Below, piece after piece: positions 42,679 to 51,893 of a DNA stretch of 64,000 nt. The notes under the pieces are model-generated. The model did no database searches. It saw only the letters and a program-made list of their open reading frames with translations, and was not told the DNA's origin. The translations under genes were made by a program, and so were the position numbers. The stretch comes from Aromatoleum aromaticum EbN1 (GTDB lineage Bacteria; Pseudomonadota; Gammaproteobacteria; Burkholderiales; Rhodocyclaceae): assembly GCF_000025965.1 (NCBI RefSeq), contig NC_006513.1:248001-312000 (forward strand), written 5' to 3'. Within the stretch, counting starts at the first letter, position 1, and each line of letters opens with the position of its first letter.

Positions 42679-43911
42679 TCAGGTGCGCATCGCCACACAA
42701 AACGAACCCTTGATCAGTTTCTCAATCTCGCCTACGGCGGTGCCCAGCCCATCTTCCTTTTCCATCTGCTCGCCAAGCTGCGCTGCCCGCTTCTGGACCC
42801 CCTCGCCTTCGACAAAGCCTATCGCCTTCCCCAGCAGCCCGGCCTCCAGCTTCGCCGCATCGAGTGCTGGCGGCGCGACGCCCAGACGATTCAGGCGTTC
42901 GGCCCAGAAGGCTTGATCGCCGGCAAATGGGATGACGACGGACGGCTTGCCAGCGCGGGTGGCGGAATGGGTCGTACCGGAGCCACCATGATGGATGACG
43001 GCGCTGGTGCGCGGGAGCAGCCAGTCGTGCGGGGTGGTACCGATACGCAGGATGTTGTCAGGCAGCCCGACGTCGTCCATGCCGCTCCAGCCGGGGTAGA
43101 AAAGTGCGCGGCGGCCGGCCAACGCAGTCACCAGCGTTTCTGCCATGTGTTGCCCATCTATCCCGGCCATGCTGCCGAAGCCGACATAGACTGGCGGCGG
43201 GCCGGCGTCGAGAAAGTCGGTGAGTTCGGGCGGTGGCGTGAAATCGGCGACCGGCGTCTGCCATTGGCCGCACAGGCGCGCGTGGGCCGGCCAATCTCCG
43301 GGCTGCGGCAGGATCGTCGGTGAAATGCCGTAGAGCATCGGATGTTCGATCGGCAGATCTCGACGCGGCGGCAGCCTGAGCACACTCTGGCGCGCTTCAT
43401 TCAGGGTTTTCCTGAAAGCAAACCAGAGCAACTGGTTCGTTGCCCGGAGGCTGGCATGGTTGAGCCAGCGTGGCACCAGAGCGGCGGGCAGGAAAGGCGA
43501 AGGAAACTCGCGCGAAGGCGTGAGCGGAATCATTCCGCTGCCGATGACCGGGATGCTCAGGCGTTCGGCCACCGATAGGCCGATGAAGCCCGCCAGGCCG
43601 GACGTGAGGATGGCGTCGCAGCCTTCGGCAGCCGCCAAGGTTTGAACCGTCCAGGCGCGGGTGTTGGCGTTGGTCAGTTCCACCAGTGCCTTGGCCGTGC
43701 CTTTTGGTCCGTGGCGGCTCCATTCGGAGAACAACTGGCGGACGTCGCCGGGCAGCGCCGAGTTGGCCAGGCCGAGTTCTTTGGCCGAGCCGAGGGCGCG
43801 CGCATCGCCGAGCAGATGGACAGCGTGGCCGCTCCTGCGCAGCGCGTGGCCAACGGCGACGAGCGGCCGGGTGTCGCCTTCCGTGCCGTACGTGAGGATC
43901 AGCAGTTTCAT
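42679..43911 (-). CDS. GT1-family glycosyltransferase (UGT/MGT-like)
   Basis: A 410-residue GT-B glycosyltransferase. N-terminal KLLILTYGTEGDTRPLVAVG resembles UDP-glycosyltransferases acting on small hydrophobic molecules. The C-terminal donor-binding block contains HHGGSGTTHSATRAGKPSVV, then FAGDQAFWAERL. Acceptor unknown; similar enzymes glycosylate antibiotics, sterols or rhamnolipid-type acceptors. Divergent from the TetR gene with an operator-like palindrome between, so likely repressed by it. Confidence 0.9.
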   Translation of the reverse strand: MKLLILTYGTEGDTRPLVAVGHALRRSGHAVHLLGDARALGSAKELGLANSALPGDVRQLFSEWSRHGPKGTAKALVELTNANTRAWTVQTLAAAEGCDAILTSGLAGFIGLSVAERLSIPVIGSGMIPLTPSREFPSPFLPAALVPRWLNHASLRATNQLLWFAFRKTLNEARQSVLRLPPRRDLPIEHPMLYGISPTILPQPGDWPAHARLCGQWQTPVADFTPPPELTDFLDAGPPPVYVGFGSMAGIDGQHMAETLVTALAGRRALFYPGWSGMDDVGLPDNILRIGTTPHDWLLPRTSAVIHHGGSGTTHSATRAGKPSVVIPFAGDQAFWAERLNRLGVAPPALDAAKLEAGLLGKAIGFVEGEGVQKRAAQLGEQMEKEDGLGTAVGEIEKLIKGSFCVAMRT

Positions 43912-43926
43912 AGAAACGCCCTAAAC

Positions 43927-43943
43927 AGTATACGTCGTATACT
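43927..43943. promoter_or_regulatory. 17-bp palindrome, candidate TetR operator
   Basis: AGTATACG T CGTATACT is a perfect 8-bp inverted repeat around one base, 16 bp upstream of the glycosyltransferase start and 26 bp upstream of the TetR start. A second half-like TATACT lies at 43955. The size fits a TetR dimer site. Confidence 0.65.
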
Positions 43944-43968
43944 TTAGCGTCCTTTATACTTCTCGGCC

Positions 43969-44622
43969 ATGATCTCTCTGACCGATCTGGAAACCCCTAC
44001 CAAGGTGCTCGCGAGCGGCCGGCGACCGCTGAAGAAGGCGCACCTGATGGAACGCATTGCCGCTGCTGCGGGGGAATTATTTCAAGCCGCTGGCTACATG
44101 ACCGTGACGATGGAGCAGATTGCCGCCGCCGCCCAGGTCTCCAAGCGCACGTTGTACAAGTATTTCCCGGCCAAGGAGGCGGTGCTGGCGCATCTGCTGG
44201 AACGGGAACTGGCGCGCGACCTTGCCGGCCGCGGTTTACGATTCGACCTGAACGCTCCGTTCCGTGCCAACGTCTCCGCACTACTGGCGGAGTCGGCTGC
44301 CTGGTGCGAGCGTCATCCCGACTATCTGCTGCCCTATATCCGCTACAAGTTCGCCAGCTTCGAGCCGAATGCCGAAACCGCCGACAAACCCGCCGACAGC
44401 GGGGACATGGTGCAGATGTGGACGCTGCTGATCGCTGCGGCCCAGCAGCGCGGCGAACTCGATGCGACACGCCCGGCCGAACAACTGGCGATCTATTTCC
44501 ATTACCTGTATTTCGGCGCGCTGATGCGCTGGATCACGGATCGGCGGCTCGATCTGAAGCAGGAGTTCACGACAGTGGTATCGCTGTTCGTCGATGGTGC
44601 CTGCGCTGCAAGGCGACAGTAG
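43969..44622 (+). CDS. TetR-family transcriptional regulator
   Basis: A 217-residue repressor. The HTH is clear: FQAAGYMTVTMEQIAAAAQV, then SKRTLYKYFPAKEAVLAHLL. The C-terminal ligand domain resembles the TetR_C_7/AefR-like group. Divergent from the glycosyltransferase, it probably binds the palindrome between the two genes and responds to a hydrophobic molecule. Confidence 0.92.
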   Translation: MISLTDLETPTKVLASGRRPLKKAHLMERIAAAAGELFQAAGYMTVTMEQIAAAAQVSKRTLYKYFPAKEAVLAHLLERELARDLAGRGLRFDLNAPFRANVSALLAESAAWCERHPDYLLPYIRYKFASFEPNAETADKPADSGDMVQMWTLLIAAAQQRGELDATRPAEQLAIYFHYLYFGALMRWITDRRLDLKQEFTTVVSLFVDGACAARRQ

Positions 44623-45016
44623 TATTCCCCTGCAAAGCCGCGGAATTTACATTATGAGCATGTCAAAGCGGCAATTCGGGGGCTAACGGGATCCCGGTCC
44701 TTTATGGCAACTTTTAAGGTTATCGATCACTGCACGGGTGGTCCGGGCGCAGTCCGTCGGAGGCGGACAGAGCGGCCGCTCGAACGAATTTGCGTACGGG
44801 CTGCCGCGTCCAGTACCGGCCGAACGGCAAGTCCCGGCCCCGGCCGGTCGATCACCTTCTCTCGACGACAGACTTTCGAGGGGCTGTTTCGCCCCGAGAC
44901 CTGCCGGATGCTGTACTTCAGCATCTCGGCCTATGCTGACGTTTGACCCCCTTCAAGACAAGGACGGCTCTGAATCCAAGAGCAGTCCTTGGCATATCTA
45001 TGAAAGCCGGGGCGAC
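44623..45016. other. intergenic stretch carrying repeat R1 copy B
   Basis: About 390 bases with no convincing gene. R1 copy B occupies 44840-44932. The flanking bases are rich in CCGGCC/GGCCGG motifs. Confidence 0.5.
44840..44932 (+). repeat. dispersed intergenic repeat R1, copy B
   Basis: Matches the reverse complement of 23647-23734, e.g. CACCTTCTCTCGAC, ACTTTCGA, GGCTGTT and GAGACCTGCCGGATGCTGT, with a handful of mismatches. Confidence 0.7.
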
Positions 45017-45709
45017 TCACCATCGAAGAGGCATTGATCGAGGAGTTGCGAACTCCGTCGGCTCCTTTCCCCGTGGGAATGCAATCACGTAAAGCACTGT
45101 GACGGGCATTGGCTTCGCATCCGGCACACCACCTTTAACAACCATTTTGCGGGTTGCGTATCGCAGTGACACCCCAAGTGCGTCGAGCGCGTCGATGTGT
45201 TCTTGAAGGACGTCGTAGATGGAAAACTTGTCCCGCTGCGAGTATATGTCGGCGCAATCCCTATAATCTCGGAAGTAGTCAACCAACTCAGCGAAGCACT
45301 CGTCGGCTTCACGGCACAATTCGAAGGCCGGTGTAGACAGGTCCATTGAGGCTAATTCCACCAGGCTGGCCAGCTCTTTTCCTGTGCTTAGCGGCAGTGC
45401 CTGCAGCGTGATGTTTTCCTTGTCGAACTTCTCCTTCGACGCATTCAATTCGTCTTCGGTCGGGATGACGTAGGGCTTGTTGAACGCGTCAATATCCTCG
45501 ATCTCAAAGGCTCGTGCCAAAGCCCTGCGTGTATCAAGGTCAGAGGCTTTGCCACCCTCCACGCGTTGTATGGTTCGGGTGCTCAGGCCAGAAAGCTCGC
45601 CCAGTTGCTCTTGCGACCACTGTCGTAGCTCACGGTGAAGCTTCACCACCATGCCCAGTTCTTCCGGCGTGAGTAGGCGGGATCGTTGTGCTTTGTCATT
45701 AACAGACAT
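45017..45709 (-). CDS. XRE-family helix-turn-helix regulator
   Basis: A 230-residue protein. Residues about 15-70 form a Cro/CI-type HTH: VVKLHRELRQWSQEQLGELS, then GLSTRTIQRVEGG. The C-terminal two thirds are helical (STPAFELCREADECFAELVD) and of unknown function. ATG 45709 follows GGAG; an ATG one codon upstream is possible. It lies 265 bp downstream of the retron-type operon on the same strand and could be its regulator, or be unrelated. Confidence 0.85.
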   Translation of the reverse strand: MSVNDKAQRSRLLTPEELGMVVKLHRELRQWSQEQLGELSGLSTRTIQRVEGGKASDLDTRRALARAFEIEDIDAFNKPYVIPTEDELNASKEKFDKENITLQALPLSTGKELASLVELASMDLSTPAFELCREADECFAELVDYFRDYRDCADIYSQRDKFSIYDVLQEHIDALDALGVSLRYATRKMVVKGGVPDAKPMPVTVLYVIAFPRGKEPTEFATPRSMPLRW

Positions 45710-45974
45710 CATCGTTCTCCATCGGTTGTTTGATGGAAGCAGTGTGGATCGCATCGATGAACGGCAACACGACAGCAGGACGACAGTACGACGACACGGG
45801 TCCAAAGTGGAGCTTTGGCTTCCTATGCGTGCTACTCGGCCGTTCCTGCGGCCAATCCGCACTGATTGAGCGGCGGCTATTTTTCCCGCGGATTGTCAGC
45901 TGCCAGATCTCCGGGTCTCATCCGGAGGTAACGGCGGATTAGACGGCGGTGTAACCTAATCCGCGCGCAGACGT

Positions 45975-47894
45975 TTAGGGCATAACCGGCGGTGGCGGAG
46001 TCGGAGCGGGTGGAGGTGCGGTCGGTTTCGCAGAGGGCGCCGCCGTCGCAGGCGAGGCAGGCGCAGCTGCACTCGCTGCGGGCACGAGTACCGCCGGCGC
46101 GACCAGCGATGCTTTGTATGCTGCAATTAGCTCATCGATGATCTCGATGCACAAGTTTTCGTCATGCCCATCGCCCATGTACGCTCCGCGTTGAGCCATG
46201 CCCGCAACTCGGAAGCGGTCATCGGTGAACGGGCCTCCGCTGTTGCCGGGCCGGATGCTGCCTGCGCCGGTGATCGTGAAACTGTTCATCCCTGCGTGTG
46301 GCGATGTTCTGTTCAGGACCGTTTGACTGTTGACGTCCGCCAAGTTCCACTGTTTCCACGCCGGGTAGCCGATGAGAAATCCTTTCGCACCGGGTTCGAT
46401 GGGGTTGTCCATCGCAGAGAAATATCGGTGCTGTGGTGGGTCTTCGAAGGCGAGCAGGGCAAAATCCATCTGTTCGTTCCGGTAAAGAATCTTTGCGTCC
46501 CATGACTTCTTCGTTCCCGGCTGAATCAGTTTCAAGGCCTTGTCGGAGAGGAACGGGCTTTCGTAGTCGATCTGCGCAAGGAACTTCCCCTCTTCGCCGT
46601 TCTGCCATTCAAGTACGTGATTGCAGGTGACGAGCAGGTTCAGTTCGCGGTAGACGAAAGCGGTTCCCTGACTGATCGGGACCTCGGTTCCGACTCCCGG
46701 TTCATCATAATCACCCATCCACTCCACGACGAAGCAGGCGTCCCGTGCCGTCTCTTTGTCACGCACGACGGGTTCGACCGGCAGTTTGGGGGCCGTGAAC
46801 GTGCCAGTAGCGGCGGTGATCAGTACCGCGCTGTTGTAGCGTTCGGCAAGCCGGGTATAGATCAAGTCATCCTTGCCGCGCACCATGCGCAAGTAGAGCA
46901 ACTTCCCCCACAAGACGTTCTTTAGGTCGGGCACCTGACCGCGCCGGGTTTGACGCTTCCACGGCTTCTTTTCGTAGGCGCCGCTTCTTGCGGCCGTCAC
47001 TCGCTCGTTCCACACTTTGTTCGCCGCTGCGTAGCCATGGCTCTCCCAAGCGATCAACGCACCGCGAATCCGATCAATGAAGACACGCGGGACGTTGGGG
47101 AACTGGTTTATCGTCAGCCCTGTTACCTCCATTCGTCGGTTCCGGTCGCAAAGACGCGTTTTCGCAGAGTTGATCTTGAAGTGATGCTGATTGACGATAA
47201 TGTCGTGCAGTTCTGTTCCGATCACTGTGTCTCCGTCGCTATCGACGGAGCAGATCGCGGCCGGCAGTTTGATCGTCTTACGGGTGCGAAACGAAAACGT
47301 GATGTCGTCGGCGTACCGGGAATATCGCGCGAGGCAACGGCGGGCGAGCTCAGTCAGGTCGCGGTCCAGCGTCCGGCATACGAGGTTGGACAGAAAGGGT
47401 GAGGTCGGAGCCCCTTGCGGCAGCGTCTTGTCGAGCGTGCAGATGTGCGCGATGACGGTCGCAACTTCGTGTGAGAACTTGAACGGGTGGTGCAAAAGCA
47501 CCCCGCGGACGCGGTAGAAGGTGATGCTTGGGAAGAAGTCTTCAAGGTCGATGTTGAAGATGTGGTGATTCTTCGGGGAGCAATGCACCTGTGCGTTGGT
47601 AAGGATGCTGCGCTTGGCGACGAACCCATGCACCGCGGGCTTCAATGGCGTGGAGCGCTTTTGAAGGAAATCCAGCACCTTCAACTGTATGACTTTAAGC
47701 CGCTTGCGCGGCTCGAAGATCGTGCGGTCCGAGCCGTCCCGCTTTTTGATAGTGAAACTCTTATATGGCGGGCGTGGGTATATGATCGCCTTCAGGCTGT
47801 CGTACGGCATGCCAAGCACGTCTCGTGAGAATGAGGCTGGCTCACTCCGGACCAGTGCCTCGACAATCTGGTCTAAGCTCAGCAAGATCGCCAT
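45975..47894 (-). CDS. retron-type reverse transcriptase fused to a trypsin-like serine protease
   Basis: A 639-residue two-domain protein. Residues 1-350: reverse transcriptase with the retron hallmarks NAxxH (Asn100-His104), catalytic Asp116 in NIDLEDFFPSI, QGAPTSP (160-166), YADD (194-197) and VTG (257-259). Residues about 375-595: trypsin-like peptidase with His426 in VTCNHVLEW, Asp477 in EQMDFALLAF and Ser552 in RPGNSGGPF, a complete triad. The tail is Ala/Pro-rich and disordered. Retron RTs make msDNA from a neighbouring ncRNA and guard a toxic effector; here the protease is the built-in effector candidate. Some retron RT lineages are known to carry proteases. The ncRNA is expected just upstream. 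Confidence 0.92.
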   Translation of the reverse strand: MAILLSLDQIVEALVRSEPASFSRDVLGMPYDSLKAIIYPRPPYKSFTIKKRDGSDRTIFEPRKRLKVIQLKVLDFLQKRSTPLKPAVHGFVAKRSILTNAQVHCSPKNHHIFNIDLEDFFPSITFYRVRGVLLHHPFKFSHEVATVIAHICTLDKTLPQGAPTSPFLSNLVCRTLDRDLTELARRCLARYSRYADDITFSFRTRKTIKLPAAICSVDSDGDTVIGTELHDIIVNQHHFKINSAKTRLCDRNRRMEVTGLTINQFPNVPRVFIDRIRGALIAWESHGYAAANKVWNERVTAARSGAYEKKPWKRQTRRGQVPDLKNVLWGKLLYLRMVRGKDDLIYTRLAERYNSAVLITAATGTFTAPKLPVEPVVRDKETARDACFVVEWMGDYDEPGVGTEVPISQGTAFVYRELNLLVTCNHVLEWQNGEEGKFLAQIDYESPFLSDKALKLIQPGTKKSWDAKILYRNEQMDFALLAFEDPPQHRYFSAMDNPIEPGAKGFLIGYPAWKQWNLADVNSQTVLNRTSPHAGMNSFTITGAGSIRPGNSGGPFTDDRFRVAGMAQRGAYMGDGHDENLCIEIIDELIAAYKASLVAPAVLVPAASAAAPASPATAAPSAKPTAPPPAPTPPPPVMP

Positions 47895-48232
47895 AGCAGC
47901 CCGTTGCGCGTGTTGAAGTTGGGGGATGCCGCCCCCGTCCGTCTTTCTCCTGTATCTGTGGATCGCGCAATATTGCTAAGCGACGATCGGCGAACCGCGC
48001 GGGGTTACCTCGTGGGAAGCCTACGTTAACGTGGGCCCGGTTAAGCTCCGGAGGGGGCGACGAGCGATTGTAAGGGCTGGCGCAATCGAGATGCAACTTT
48101 CCAAGCGGCGCTTTTCTTACATAGCAAGGATGTGATTAGGGGCCCGAACTAGGGATAGGAAAAACTCATAGTATCAAAGGAATGGCACGAACGGCACGCC
48201 GAGCAGCATGATGGTCGCCCAAACCTAAATGC
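47895..48232 (-). ncRNA. candidate retron msr-msd region
   Basis: 338 non-coding bases between the membrane-protein gene and the reverse transcriptase, the place where retron ncRNAs are encoded. Read on the minus strand it has a possible -10 (TACTAT near 48170), stems such as ACGTTAACGT (palindrome near 48030), AACC..GGTT near 48000, and GGGGG..CCCCC near 47930 inside a TTGCGCG/CGCGCAA pair. I could not find a convincing long a1/a2 pair, so boundaries are not set. Confidence 0.4.
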
Positions 48233-49759
48233 TCACTTTGGGCGGACGGCATCTTTCGGCTTCACGTCCAGCTCACGCCCTCCGACGCTTGCGGGCCTAG
48301 CCGGCTCACTGGAAACATCCTTCCGGTTGCCATCATCCGCCGCGCTACCGCTGGCCGCCGAAGATCGACCTACATCGCTAGTCGCATCTGGAACCGCCCG
48401 CGCCGGTATCTCAGGCGAGGGTTCAACCGTTTTGACGGTTGCTGCACCTCTACCCCACCAACCAAAAATTACGATGGCTGTTAGTACTGCAACCCCAACG
48501 CCCCCTCCCCACGCCACCTTGAAGAAAGTGCGCTCCGCTCGATTGGCGGGCTTACTGACCATGCTCTCGTATTCAGATCGCGGCAGAAAACGGTACAGCC
48601 GCGGCTGCCAATCCCTCCTCAACTGGCGTTGGAGCTGTATAAAACCGTAGCCAGAATAGATAACCACCCCGACGTACGCAGCCACAACGGCCATTACCGC
48701 TACAATCAACTCATAGCTTGCTGCGGTGCTAACGCGGGCGGCAATAAGGCCAAGGCTGATCGCCAACGCGCCGGCGACCGCGGTTACCAGCTGTCTCGTC
48801 GCGTCGGTAACCTTGGCGGTTTCCTCCGTCACGGCCTTTCGCAGATCGGCCAACATCTTCAGCGTATCGCGCCCAAGATCTGAGAGTGATACTTGATAGG
48901 CAACCTTCGCTCCATCAAGTGAAGATGAAATATTGCTAATGAAACACTGGAAATCATCACCATTGCCGCCAGCGGAACGAGCAATGTCATTTGCCAGCAA
49001 ACCGTGGCGCAGTTCTGCCTCGCGCTCGTTCTCAAAAACCCAGCTCGCGGCACGCTGAAGGTTATTAAAGTGATCAACGCCGATATCATCGGCCAAGCTA
49101 GCGCGTTCAGCGGGCACGCTGATAGAAAGCTTAGGAGGCCCCTTGAACTTCAACTTCTTATCTATCGGATCGATCTCGTCAGCCAGCGAGTTGAGGAGAG
49201 CAAGTGAAGATGCCCTCATCCAGACTTTGGAAGCCGGATCCTCAAATGAGGAACTTACCTCCTCTCGGAGAAGCCATGGGCGAACATCCTCTGGCGCCAA
49301 TCGTTCTGCGCCGAACTCACGGACCAAAGAGCGAGGGCTCTTAGTATTGGCTGAAGGTTGATATGGTTCTACTTCACCCCACGATTGGAGCACCCTCGCA
49401 TGGGTGACTATCCGCTGTGTCAGTCTCGCCACTTGCCAATTGACAGCGGTGTGACCAACTCTGAGCCACTCAGCAAGACCAGTATTGGTCAATAATACAA
49501 GCGCATCGCCACCAAAAGATGGCTTTCGGAGCCGTAGCCGATACGGCCCGAAATCCTGAAGTAGCTCATTATCCCGCCACTCCGTCCCTGCGCTGTCATA
49601 CAGATCGAAGCTCCAACCCAGCTCATTGCATATTTCAATAATGTTCTTAGCTGCGTTAGTCGCCAAGCCCGACACCGAGATGTCATTCTCAGACTCTCTA
49701 ATGAAGGCTTCATCGGTGCTCAATCGATCGAGCAGCTCAGCGAGCAGGATCACGGACAA
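48233..49759 (-). CDS. three-helix membrane protein of the putative defence operon
   Basis: A 508-residue protein. Residues 1-310 are cytoplasmic-looking with mixed helices, including a C-terminal helical stretch (LKMLADLRKAVTEETAKVTD) that may be a coiled coil. Three hydrophobic segments lie at about 323-342, 349-373 and 411-436, followed by a disordered Ser/Pro/Asp tail. I recognise no family. Its start overlaps the end of the NA37-like gene by 23 bases. The GC content is lower than in the flanking chromosome. A membrane protein beside a retron RT could be a membrane-acting effector, but that is inference. Confidence 0.75.
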   Translation of the reverse strand: MSVILLAELLDRLSTDEAFIRESENDISVSGLATNAAKNIIEICNELGWSFDLYDSAGTEWRDNELLQDFGPYRLRLRKPSFGGDALVLLTNTGLAEWLRVGHTAVNWQVARLTQRIVTHARVLQSWGEVEPYQPSANTKSPRSLVREFGAERLAPEDVRPWLLREEVSSSFEDPASKVWMRASSLALLNSLADEIDPIDKKLKFKGPPKLSISVPAERASLADDIGVDHFNNLQRAASWVFENEREAELRHGLLANDIARSAGGNGDDFQCFISNISSSLDGAKVAYQVSLSDLGRDTLKMLADLRKAVTEETAKVTDATRQLVTAVAGALAISLGLIAARVSTAASYELIVAVMAVVAAYVGVVIYSGYGFIQLQRQLRRDWQPRLYRFLPRSEYESMVSKPANRAERTFFKVAWGGGVGVAVLTAIVIFGWWGRGAATVKTVEPSPEIPARAVPDATSDVGRSSAASGSAADDGNRKDVSSEPARPASVGGRELDVKPKDAVRPK

Positions 49760-50786
49760 GCTTGTCCTCCGTTACGCAGGCGGTTTCGATCGTAAACCTC
49801 TCCGCACCGGCAGCCAGTCTCTCACGCCGAACGGTAATCCCTTCTGCATCATCCGGATAAGTCAGTGTTACCCCTTCCGTTGTGCGAACTTTACGAAGAG
49901 GCGCTCGCCGTAGCACCTGTCTGTCCGGTCTGAACTCTAGCCCTTCAAGCTTGGCCACACGAATCCTACGTCGAGTGGTTGACTGTATCGTACTCCTGAC
50001 CTCTTCATCCTCAGGGTTGCCAGCAGCTGCCAGTACCGCGTCCGTTATCGCTGCCTCATTTATCTCCTGGCGGTCACGAAGAATTCCCTGCGCTCGCCGA
50101 AATGCACTAGGGACGTCCTGCTCAGGAAGCAGTTCCTTACAGGCAGTCAGCGTCGTTCGCAGGACTTCGATAGTCTTCTTGTTCAAATCTTCATCGCTGA
50201 GCGTTCTGGAAACGTCGAGAAAGGTGGCAAAGTAGTCACCGATCTCCGGAGAGGACTTCATCCGATCTCGGGCGGAGATGGGCAACTCTGCGACGCCGCC
50301 AACCACACGCACGATGGTTGACTTCTGAATCGCCTTTTTATCGGCGATGAACGCCGTGACTATTCGTCGCAACAGGCCACCTTCATCCACCGCGGCTTGC
50401 TCGATCGCCTCGCGGTAATCATACTTCACGAAACTGTATATCTTTGTCACTGGGTCATGTGTGGACAGCTCAAAGATAAACAACGCACCGTCACGGCTAC
50501 TGCCCACGTGCAAACGCGAAAACTCCCGCGATAGCGCCTGAGCTCCTTCCTCGAAGCTCACTGCACCAGTTGCAATCAGTTCAATCTGCCCCTTTGTATT
50601 AGAGGTTTCCTTGAAGCTGTAGACCGGAGATACGTCCGTATCACGAATTCGATCAATGAAGAATTCTTCATGCTCGACTGCGCGCGCCGGTTGCGGTGAG
50701 AAGGCGCCATCACCTACCACGTGAAGAATCATGCTGGTGATATGAAGTGAGCCGACCTCTTCGTCCGTAAAGAAACCCAAGTCCAT
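49737..50786 (-). CDS. NdpA/NA37-like nucleoid-associated protein
   Basis: A 349-residue protein resembling YejK/NdpA (NA37, PF04245) in order of features: an N-terminal strand with His (LHITSMILHVVGDG), the middle DGALFIFELSTHD plus SFVKYDYREAI, the helical YFATFLDVSRTLSDEDLNKK segment, and C-terminal paired strands GVTLTYPDDAEGITVRR. The similarity is distant. KwaB-like (DUF4868) proteins have a comparable look and are an alternative. It is first in the minus-strand operon leading to the membrane protein and the retron-type RT. Confidence 0.6.
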   Translation of the reverse strand: MDLGFFTDEEVGSLHITSMILHVVGDGAFSPQPARAVEHEEFFIDRIRDTDVSPVYSFKETSNTKGQIELIATGAVSFEEGAQALSREFSRLHVGSSRDGALFIFELSTHDPVTKIYSFVKYDYREAIEQAAVDEGGLLRRIVTAFIADKKAIQKSTIVRVVGGVAELPISARDRMKSSPEIGDYFATFLDVSRTLSDEDLNKKTIEVLRTTLTACKELLPEQDVPSAFRRAQGILRDRQEINEAAITDAVLAAAGNPEDEEVRSTIQSTTRRRIRVAKLEGLEFRPDRQVLRRAPLRKVRTTEGVTLTYPDDAEGITVRRERLAAGAERFTIETACVTEDKLVRDPAR

Positions 50787-50995
50787 TCCCCCGTTATTGG
50801 TGTGGCGAGGACTGATACATCCTCATTATGTTCTCCACCCTCGCTTGCAAGCCGAGAGCGCCGTCGCCAGCTTCCCTATGGTGAACTCCGACCGCAAGCG
50901 GCAGCGGGGGTGAATATTATACCGGCGTGATGCGACACTGCTCGGCAGCGTTTGGAGCCGAGGAGGAGTGAATCGCGCAGGCTTCACCACCTGCT
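50787..50995. promoter_or_regulatory. upstream region of the putative defence operon
   Basis: Non-coding; on the minus strand it should hold the promoter. TATAAT-like GGTATAATATTC (near 50915-50925, minus strand) is a plausible -10. Confidence 0.45.
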
Positions 50996-51079
50996 TTAGA
51001 GCCTCTGCCAGAACTGTCATGGCGAAACCTGAGTTGATGGCGTCAGGTCCAATGGCTTTGGCGTTGAAGGAGTGCAGCT

Positions 51080-51499
51080 ATGGCCGTGGAGCTTTTGCCG
51101 GACGCGCTGTGGGCGGAGATCGAGCCGTTGTTGCCCGAACACGATCCGTCGCCGTCGATCGACGGCGGCCGGCCGCGGATACCCGACCGAGTGGCGCTCA
51201 AAGGCATCATCTTCGTGCTGACCTACAGTATTCCGTGGAACAAGCTGCCCAAGGACTTGGGGTTTGGCAGCGGCCGGACGTGCCTGCGTCGCCTGCAGGA
51301 ATGGCAGGAGGCCGGAGTCTGGGCGGCGTTACACCAGAAGCTGCTGGCCCATCTGAATCAGGCCGATCAGATCGACTGGTCAAGGGCCGCCGTGGACGCC
51401 GGGAGCGTCCCTTCCCCCCCTGGGCGGCGAAGACACGGGCCCAAACCCAACCGACCGCGGCAAGCTCGGCACCAAGCATCACTTGCTGGTCGACCGTAA
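51080..51499 (+). CDS. IS5-family transposase, first frame
   Basis: A 139-codon frame with the DUF4096-type N-terminal domain (LLPDALWAEIEPLLPEHDPS, PSIDGGRPRIPDRVALKGI). The catalytic domain begins at VDAGSVPSPPG, after which this frame diverges; the rest of the transposase continues in the frame of 51483-51893. A C-run (TTCCCCCCC near 51413) is the probable frameshift site. Confidence 0.88.
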   Translation: MAVELLPDALWAEIEPLLPEHDPSPSIDGGRPRIPDRVALKGIIFVLTYSIPWNKLPKDLGFGSGRTCLRRLQEWQEAGVWAALHQKLLAHLNQADQIDWSRAAVDAGSVPSPPGRRRHGPKPNRPRQARHQASLAGRP

Positions 51500-51893
51500 C
51501 GGCCTGCCGCTGGCCGTGGCGCTCTCGGCGGCCAACACCCACGACAGCCAAGTCTTCATTCCGCTGCTCGACGGCGCGAGAGCGATCGCCGGAAAGCGCG
51601 GCCGGCCCCGCTGGCGACCTCACAAGCTTCACGCTGACAAGGGCTACGACTTCCGCTTCTGTCGTGACTACCTGCGCCGCCAGGGCATCCTTCATCGCAT
51701 CGCCCGGCGCGGCATCGAGTCCAAGGAGCGCCTCGGCCGACACCGCTGGGTGGTCGAGCGAACGATCTCCTGGCTTCATCGATTCCGACGCCTTCGGATC
51801 CGGTACGACAAGCGCTCCGCCATTCACTTGGCTTTTCTCCTGCTCGCTTGTTCGATCATCGCGTGGCGCTTTGTACAACGGTTTTGTCACTGA
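51483..51893 (+). CDS. IS5-family transposase, second frame
   Basis: A 136-codon frame with the second half of the DDE domain: LVDRNGLPLAVALSAANTHD, HADKGYDFRFCRDYLRR (second Asp) and GRHRWVVERTISWLHRFRRL (Glu). In IS427-type elements the two frames are joined by programmed frameshifting. Confidence 0.88.
   Translation: MLVDRNGLPLAVALSAANTHDSQVFIPLLDGARAIAGKRGRPRWRPHKLHADKGYDFRFCRDYLRRQGILHRIARRGIESKERLGRHRWVVERTISWLHRFRRLRIRYDKRSAIHLAFLLLACSIIAWRFVQRFCH

Follow-up and report, generated by a model that had tools for sequence, protein, structure and literature searches.

A type XI retron of Aromatoleum aromaticum EbN1: a predicted reverse transcriptase-protease fusion gene and its covarying upstream RNA

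Introduction

What would a retron reverse transcriptase (RT) do with a protease attached to it, and is the unit that carries such a fusion complete? Retrons are small bacterial systems that reverse-transcribe an RNA of their own and probably defend against viruses. Both questions are raised by a locus of Aromatoleum aromaticum EbN1, where an original prediction, made from the DNA letters, described a retron-type RT joined to an intact trypsin-like protease in a distinctive genomic context. The fusion type is already catalogued as type XI in PADLOC, in keeping with the prediction's remark that protease-carrying retron RTs exist, and the EbN1 locus is a further member of it. Retron type names reportedly stem from Mestre et al. 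2020. A search of the open literature, outside which most subscription papers lie, returned no account of the targets cut by a retron-fused protease. Here, we analyze the gene, its upstream RNA, its relatives and its neighbors, and we weigh what the protease may do. All coordinates refer to the window, i.e., the whole 64-kb stretch of DNA (64,000 nucleotides) that was analyzed.

The RT-protease gene and its protein

The gene and the regions of its product are as follows.

45975-47894 (stop codon included), minus strand: RT-protease fusion gene, 639 aa, a single uninterrupted ORF with an ATG start
Residues about 25-365 of the fusion: RT domain
Residues about 390-597 of the fusion: protease domain
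Residues 600-639 of the fusion: proline/alanine-rich tail

The single 639-residue ORF was confirmed and lies on the minus strand. The retron RT signatures and the His426-Asp477-Ser552 triad of the original prediction were likewise found on the translation at the positions it had given: NAQVH at 100-104, D116, YADD at 194-197, and VTG at 257-259 in the RT half (NAxxH, YADD, and VTG being the names of retron RT motifs), and H426, D477, and Ser552, the latter within GNSGGP (550-555), in the protease half. Pfam profiles RVT_1 (residues 49-262, E 4.9e-20) and Trypsin_2 (residues 410-566, E 9e-14) both match above their curated cut-offs. The best PADLOC profile is RT-Protease_XI (539 bits, E 3e-162), which PADLOC describes as ‘RT-Protease, single gene’ and which aligns residues 25-590 to positions 14-504 of its 506; the next models, RT-TIR_XII (347 bits, residues 26-355) and RT-Toprim_I-C, cover the RT part alone. 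Together, the PADLOC and Pfam matches uphold the proposed fusion of a retron RT to a complete trypsin-like protease.

We aligned 14 type XI proteins, the 13 members other than EbN1 sharing 28-72% identity with the EbN1 protein. N100, A101, H104, D116, YADD, VTG, H426, D477, and S552 are invariant in all 14, EbN1 included, and since the catalytic residues of both halves are thus preserved, both activities look selected. The linker and the tail vary among the relatives. No PDZ domain was found in the fusion by Pfam up to E 1. The one hydrophobic stretch, a marginal one that starts at residue 589 (mean 1.68), falls within the last predicted helix, so the protein is probably cytoplasmic. As predicted from its sequence, the protein is a retron RT followed by an intact His-Asp-Ser trypsin-like (HtrA-like) protease, and we regard the retron identity of the locus as practically certain.

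The original prediction had proposed structure prediction of both domains, and at the level of overall fold the result agrees with its assignment. An AlphaFold2 model built on ten alignment rows has a mean pLDDT of 78 and a pTM of 0.48, with 473 of the 639 residues at 70 or higher; flexibility or low confidence is predicted for the linker (~361-380) and for the tail rich in proline and alanine. Among the Foldseek matches listed (the best 50 of 557 at E 0.001), the RT half pairs first with retron Eco2 (9lm3_A, E 5.5e-20), followed by other retrons, and Eco2 is also its nearest solved structure by sequence search. The protease half pairs, among the matches listed, with the catalytic domains of HtrA/Deg proteins, namely Deg2, Deg9, DegP, HtrA1, HtrA3, and Rv3671c, and reaches a TM-score of 0.74 (Foldseek, normalized by target) against HtrA1 (3tjn_D). 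At a pTM of 0.48, the mutual arrangement of the domains stays loose, so the model lends no structural support to gating of one half by the other.

The upstream msr-msd RNA

A retron ncRNA, absent from the original prediction, is present upstream of the gene. Its parts are listed in the direction of transcription.

48067-48072, minus strand: TACAAT, a -10-like box (TANAAT in 6/6 loci, 22-24 nt upstream of the TTAA found after a1)
47921-48066, minus strand: msr-msd ncRNA of about 146 nt with approximate, sequence-derived ends, ending 26 nt before the ATG
48049-48061, minus strand: a1 arm of the closing stem, pairing with a2 (duplex -28.1 kcal/mol, one bulged base)
48017-48038, minus strand: msr hairpin with a TTAA loop, covarying within the EbN1 clade
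47961-47988, minus strand: variable hairpin, the presumed msd stem, seen in single-sequence folds only and differing in sequence in each relative
47942-47950, minus strand: GGAGAAAGA, conserved as GGWGAAAGA in 6/6 loci directly before a2, the presumed start of the reverse-transcription template
47928-47941, minus strand: a2 arm of the closing stem, pairing with a1

EbN1 and five relatives share one block order: TANAAT, a1, CTTAA, the TTAA-loop hairpin, GTA..CCC, a variable hairpin-folding stretch, GGWGAAAGA, and a2. A weak -35-like TTGCAT lies 18 nt farther upstream of the TACAAT box; a general sigma-70 scan of 45600-48300 reported no promoter, this box included. Other retrons have a conserved priming G after a1 for 2'-5' branching. 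Such a G is not clear in the EbN1 block, because four of the six loci have G and two have A directly before the conserved CTTAA, and because G is missing altogether from the stretch that separates a1 from the msr hairpin in the ncRNA of locus L009 (3236-3374, minus strand).

The closing stem was assessed by exchanging arms between loci. For six loci, a1 x a2 duplexes average -27.0 kcal/mol with the locus's own partner and -17.0 kcal/mol in cross-pairings, and just 2 of the 720 possible assignments are as good or better, counting the true one; the second is the swap between EbN1 and L006. When four loci from a second type XI subclade were added, none of 200000 random assignments equaled the true one, and in nine of ten rows no a2 surpassed the locus's own, L056 being the exception; cross-pairing inside a subclade is also good, so part of this ten-locus signal reflects relatedness. 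An ungapped inverted-repeat search misses the EbN1 arms (score 27 against 12 shuffles with a mean of 26 and a maximum of 37), which pair in a bulged stem and were recovered by the duplex test. By the same search, five of the ten loci (L040, L041, L042, L053, and L057) beat all 12 shuffles and five (EbN1, L006, L039, L056, and L058) do not; in L041 and L057, the 3' arm extends beyond the assumed start codon.

The closing stem and the msr hairpin covary. In alignment A2, 88.5% of the cells are paired, against 37-55% in slid versions, and both-side changes occur at 10 of 16 pairs, against a shuffled mean of 3.4, with 0/500 shuffles as high. The four-sequence alignment A9 gives 80.9% paired cells and both-side changes at 11 of 17 pairs (shuffled mean 4.3, 0/500 as high). 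A measure of further pair types is weaker, with 22 and 23 of 500 shuffles equally high.

No Rfam match was found over the 64-kb window or over the upstream region alone. PADLOC employs msr-msd covariance models (PMC9252829). We built three models for this family. R3 was trained on four loci, leaving out EbN1 and Rhodocyclus tenuis, with an alignment and structure that were set when EbN1 was already known; it scores 72.9 bits on the EbN1 ncRNA and 72.4 on that of R. tenuis, and across the 4.7-Mb EbN1 genome its sole match at E 1 or better is this ncRNA (E 4e-13). R1, built for the EbN1 subclade, was run on 294 family genomes and matches 4 of them strongly, exactly those with the full-length gene; all four are in its training set or are copies, so the result shows absence elsewhere and no new finds. 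A match in a fifth family genome (G062, L052 1501-1637) was weak (E 0.028) and was taken as chance. R2, built from the second type XI subclade, was not trained on L054 and finds an RNA there (E 3.4e-10) that ends 24 nt ahead of a further type XI match. R1 gives no match in the distant type XI loci searched, and R2 does not find the EbN1 ncRNA. Considering the layout, the pairing and the covariation, we assign the ncRNA at 48066-47921 to the retron with very high confidence. The locus is thus predicted to be a complete, apparently intact type XI retron composed of one ncRNA and one RT-protease gene.

Relatives, distribution and RT phylogeny

Full-length relatives of the fusion are found in Rhodocyclus tenuis (72% identity), Advenella faeciporci (64%), and a Zoogloea MAG (60%), and two more occur within EbN1's own family (49% and 44%). 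Distant relatives, at 28-34%, are encoded on plasmids of Pseudomonas luteola, Bacillus arachidis, Haematobacter massiliensis, and a Pseudoalteromonas, and in further genomes. Type XI is rare among the genomes sampled. Counting EbN1 each time, the PADLOC profile gives near-complete matches in 4 of 297 family genomes; in the order sample at E 1e-100, the one match among 399 genomes is EbN1 itself; at E 1e-90, the class sample gives 4 of 369 (one of them the RT part alone) and the phylum sample 8 of 398 (four of them the RT part alone). L055, the one scanned among these five RT-part-alone matches, is an RT-Toprim. A close-relative scan of viral contigs for the RT-protease gave none, and phage records returned seven partial RT matches, none reaching 80% query coverage.

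We placed the EbN1 RT in a tree of 38 rows that contains no group II, DGR or other non-retron outgroup. EbN1 and five relatives form a subclade with 100/100 support, nested in a 98/98 clade of 23 rows. Besides 14 type XI rows, this clade holds L043, L044, and seven more; the three of these seven that were scanned (L013, L014, and L055) belong to RT-Toprim type I-C. On the tree, the 14 type XI rows, L043 lying outside this labelled group, require three label changes, a count compatible with a single as well as with a repeated origin.

Several members of the wider set are altered. On a Phaeobacter plasmid (L043, 4980-6521), the type XI gene overlaps an IS3 transposase gene and looks broken, and its Trypsin_2 match ends at position 108 of the 144 of the Pfam model, as in a truncated gene. 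The type XI gene of L054 also looks broken, with one in-frame stop reported by the search. On the Picosynechococcus plasmid pAQ5 (L044, 3881-5888), an RT that scores best against RT-Protease_XI among the PADLOC models (E 2e-138) stops after the RT part and is directly followed by a gene for a 301-aa protein that has no Pfam match at E 0.01 and is a possible unfused or exchanged effector.

Genomic neighborhood

Neighboring genes were compared across ten type XI loci, EbN1 included, at E 1e-6, using ORFs of at least 70 aa and flanks of at least 3.5 kb on most sides. No EbN1 neighbor gene has a homologue in the nine other loci, where the RT-protease alone is common; the remaining matches to EbN1 ORFs are to reverse-strand ORFs inside the RT-protease gene. 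The distinctive genomic context of the original prediction was therefore not sustained, there being no EbN1 neighbor shared with any of the nine other type XI loci and the upstream gene pair also occurring on plasmids. That pair consists of overlapping minus-strand genes (48233-50786), same-strand and just upstream of the RT-protease gene, which encode a 508-aa membrane protein (48233-49759) and a 349-aa, weakly NA37-like protein (49737-50786). The 508-aa protein has three hydrophobic stretches, from residues 323, 351, and 415. Neither protein has a PADLOC or NCBIfam match or a Pfam match above cut-off, and relatives of the two are encoded next to each other on plasmids of Methylocystis, Rhizobium, Pantoea, and Sinorhizobium, which suggests a two-gene module, perhaps for defense. 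Just downstream of the RT-protease lies a gene for a helix-turn-helix (HTH) protein (45017-45862).

The flanking genes (45017-45862 and 48233-50786) have a GC fraction of 0.54-0.55, the RT-protease gene 0.59, and the whole window 0.64. A transposase of the IS4/5 kind (51080-51893, plus strand), in two overlapping frames matching DUF4096 and then DDE_Tnp_1, sits at the edge of this lower-GC stretch containing the retron. The low-GC flanks and the transposase would fit an acquired island. The neighbors of the RT-protease are not parts of the retron.

Other type XI loci have surroundings of their own. The R. tenuis locus lies near genes which, named from sequence, encode a GntR-type regulator and a ribonucleotide reductase. 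In two unrelated type XI loci (L007, 7089-11304; L041, 6603-10818), the neighbors are homologous, and those of L041 are annotated as an ATP-dependent endonuclease and a UvrD-like helicase, which we take to be the Gabija gene pair; this Gabija-type pair beside both retrons suggests that type XI retrons can sit in defense islands.

Comparison with known systems

The EbN1 locus resembles retron type XI in domain order, full-length profile match, single-gene organization, and invariant RT and protease residues; it differs in its RNA, as the ncRNA model of the EbN1 subclade misses other type XI RNAs and vice versa. Its RT half also matches retron type XII (RT-TIR; 347 bits over 26-355), whose effector is a TIR domain in place of the protease. 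With HtrA/Deg proteases, it shares the catalytic-domain fold, the His-Asp-Ser order and GNSGG, whereas the EbN1 protein has no PDZ match in Pfam and is fused to an RT. Trypsin-like proteases fused to defense enzymes are also described for Hachiman, AVAST, Lamassu, and DRT protease-nuclease loci (PMC12799240), but there the protease is N-terminal and stands beside an MBL-fold nuclease gene, whereas that of EbN1 is C-terminal and no MBL-type nuclease was found among the scanned proteins, neighbors in 42682-51893 included. The closest comparison is with retron Eco2/Ec67 (type I-C, RT-Toprim), likewise a one-gene RT-effector fusion with an ncRNA, which supplies the nearest solved structure by sequence and by fold among the matches listed and whose RT-Toprim type falls in the same 98/98 clade. 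The two differ in the effector, i.e., a Toprim nuclease acting as an RNase in Eco2 (PMC12405507) and a protease domain in EbN1.

Proposed mechanism and alternatives

Anti-phage function of the retron is highly probable. The original prediction suggested that msDNA or the RT domain controls proteolysis on infection, and with Eco2 as the model this may be so. PMC12405507 describes the Eco2 msDNA-RT-Toprim trimer as self-inhibited, reports toxicity for isolated Toprim fragments but none for the full fusion, and implicates the phage nuclease DenB in activating the system. By analogy, the EbN1 RT would reverse-transcribe the msd, the resulting msDNA would remain attached to the fusion protein, and in this complex the HtrA-like protease would be kept inactive, as proposed for the Eco2 Toprim. 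Phage activity that degrades or alters the msDNA would then free or re-assemble the protease, which would cleave host or phage proteins encoded outside the locus and so halt phage propagation at the cell's expense. HtrA proteases are switched through loop ordering and assembly, so gating by an RNA-DNA scaffold would suit the protease half. The mechanism is carried over by analogy, since the Eco2 effector is a Toprim and not a protease, and we lean towards, without pressing, the view that the protease is the effector and is restrained by msDNA. The whole msDNA-gated explanation is favored to the same degree, its confidence having been set to that of its least certain central step.

The scheme presupposes a retron, and it is most improbable that the RT is instead that of a group II intron or of a diversity-generating retroelement. 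Such an origin could be argued from further RVT_1 matches in the EbN1 genome and from a weak match of the protein to a group II maturase model, yet this match scores 51 bits against a model cut-off of 300, compared with 310 bits for the retron TIR model and 539 for type XI. NAxxH and VTG are invariant in the 14 type XI proteins, a retron-like ncRNA precedes the gene, and solved retrons come first by sequence and, among the Foldseek matches listed, by fold. The case rests on these scores and not on the tree, which has no group II or DGR outgroup.

Three other readings accept the retron and assign the protease a different task. It might activate a linked pro-effector, i.e., the 508-aa membrane protein, the NA37-like protein or the HTH protein: two of the candidate genes are close upstream neighbors in the same orientation, the third follows directly downstream, and a proenzyme nuclease activated by a partner trypsin-like protease, as in some Hachiman and AVAST loci, is on record (PMC12799240). 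We consider this quite improbable, because the three candidates have no homologue in the nine other type XI loci, the 508/349-aa pair also occurs on plasmids, where two annotated regions list no RT gene, and no MBL-type nuclease is among the proteins scanned. The protease might rather turn on its own chain and split the RT from the protease, the released part being the effector or regulator. HtrA-type proteases can self-cleave, and the linker and tail, flexible or of low confidence in the model, would offer accessible sites, but both are poorly conserved among relatives and no conserved cleavage site was seen, which leaves self-processing unlikely. About equally doubtful is a direct antiviral protease that removes a phage protein and protects the cell or the system, so that the cell survives; it would fit a locus without a dedicated substrate gene, whereas characterized retrons work by abortive infection (PMC12548924 and PMC13405049).

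We thus retain the msDNA-gated protease. No EbN1 neighbor gene has a counterpart in any of the nine other type XI loci, and the comparison therefore revealed no linked substrate. As a partner gene is not conserved, an unlinked protein is the most likely substrate; that it is not encoded beside the retron we consider likely. More tentatively, and with rather less than even confidence, infection might be sensed through the reverse-transcribed DNA and answered by direct proteolysis of an essential host or phage protein, using one polypeptide and one RNA and no dedicated substrate nearby.

Conclusions

If this reading is true, the EbN1 retron would be a compact unit of one gene and one RNA, with approximate boundaries backed by covariation, and it would let the substrate and the switch of the protease be asked about directly.
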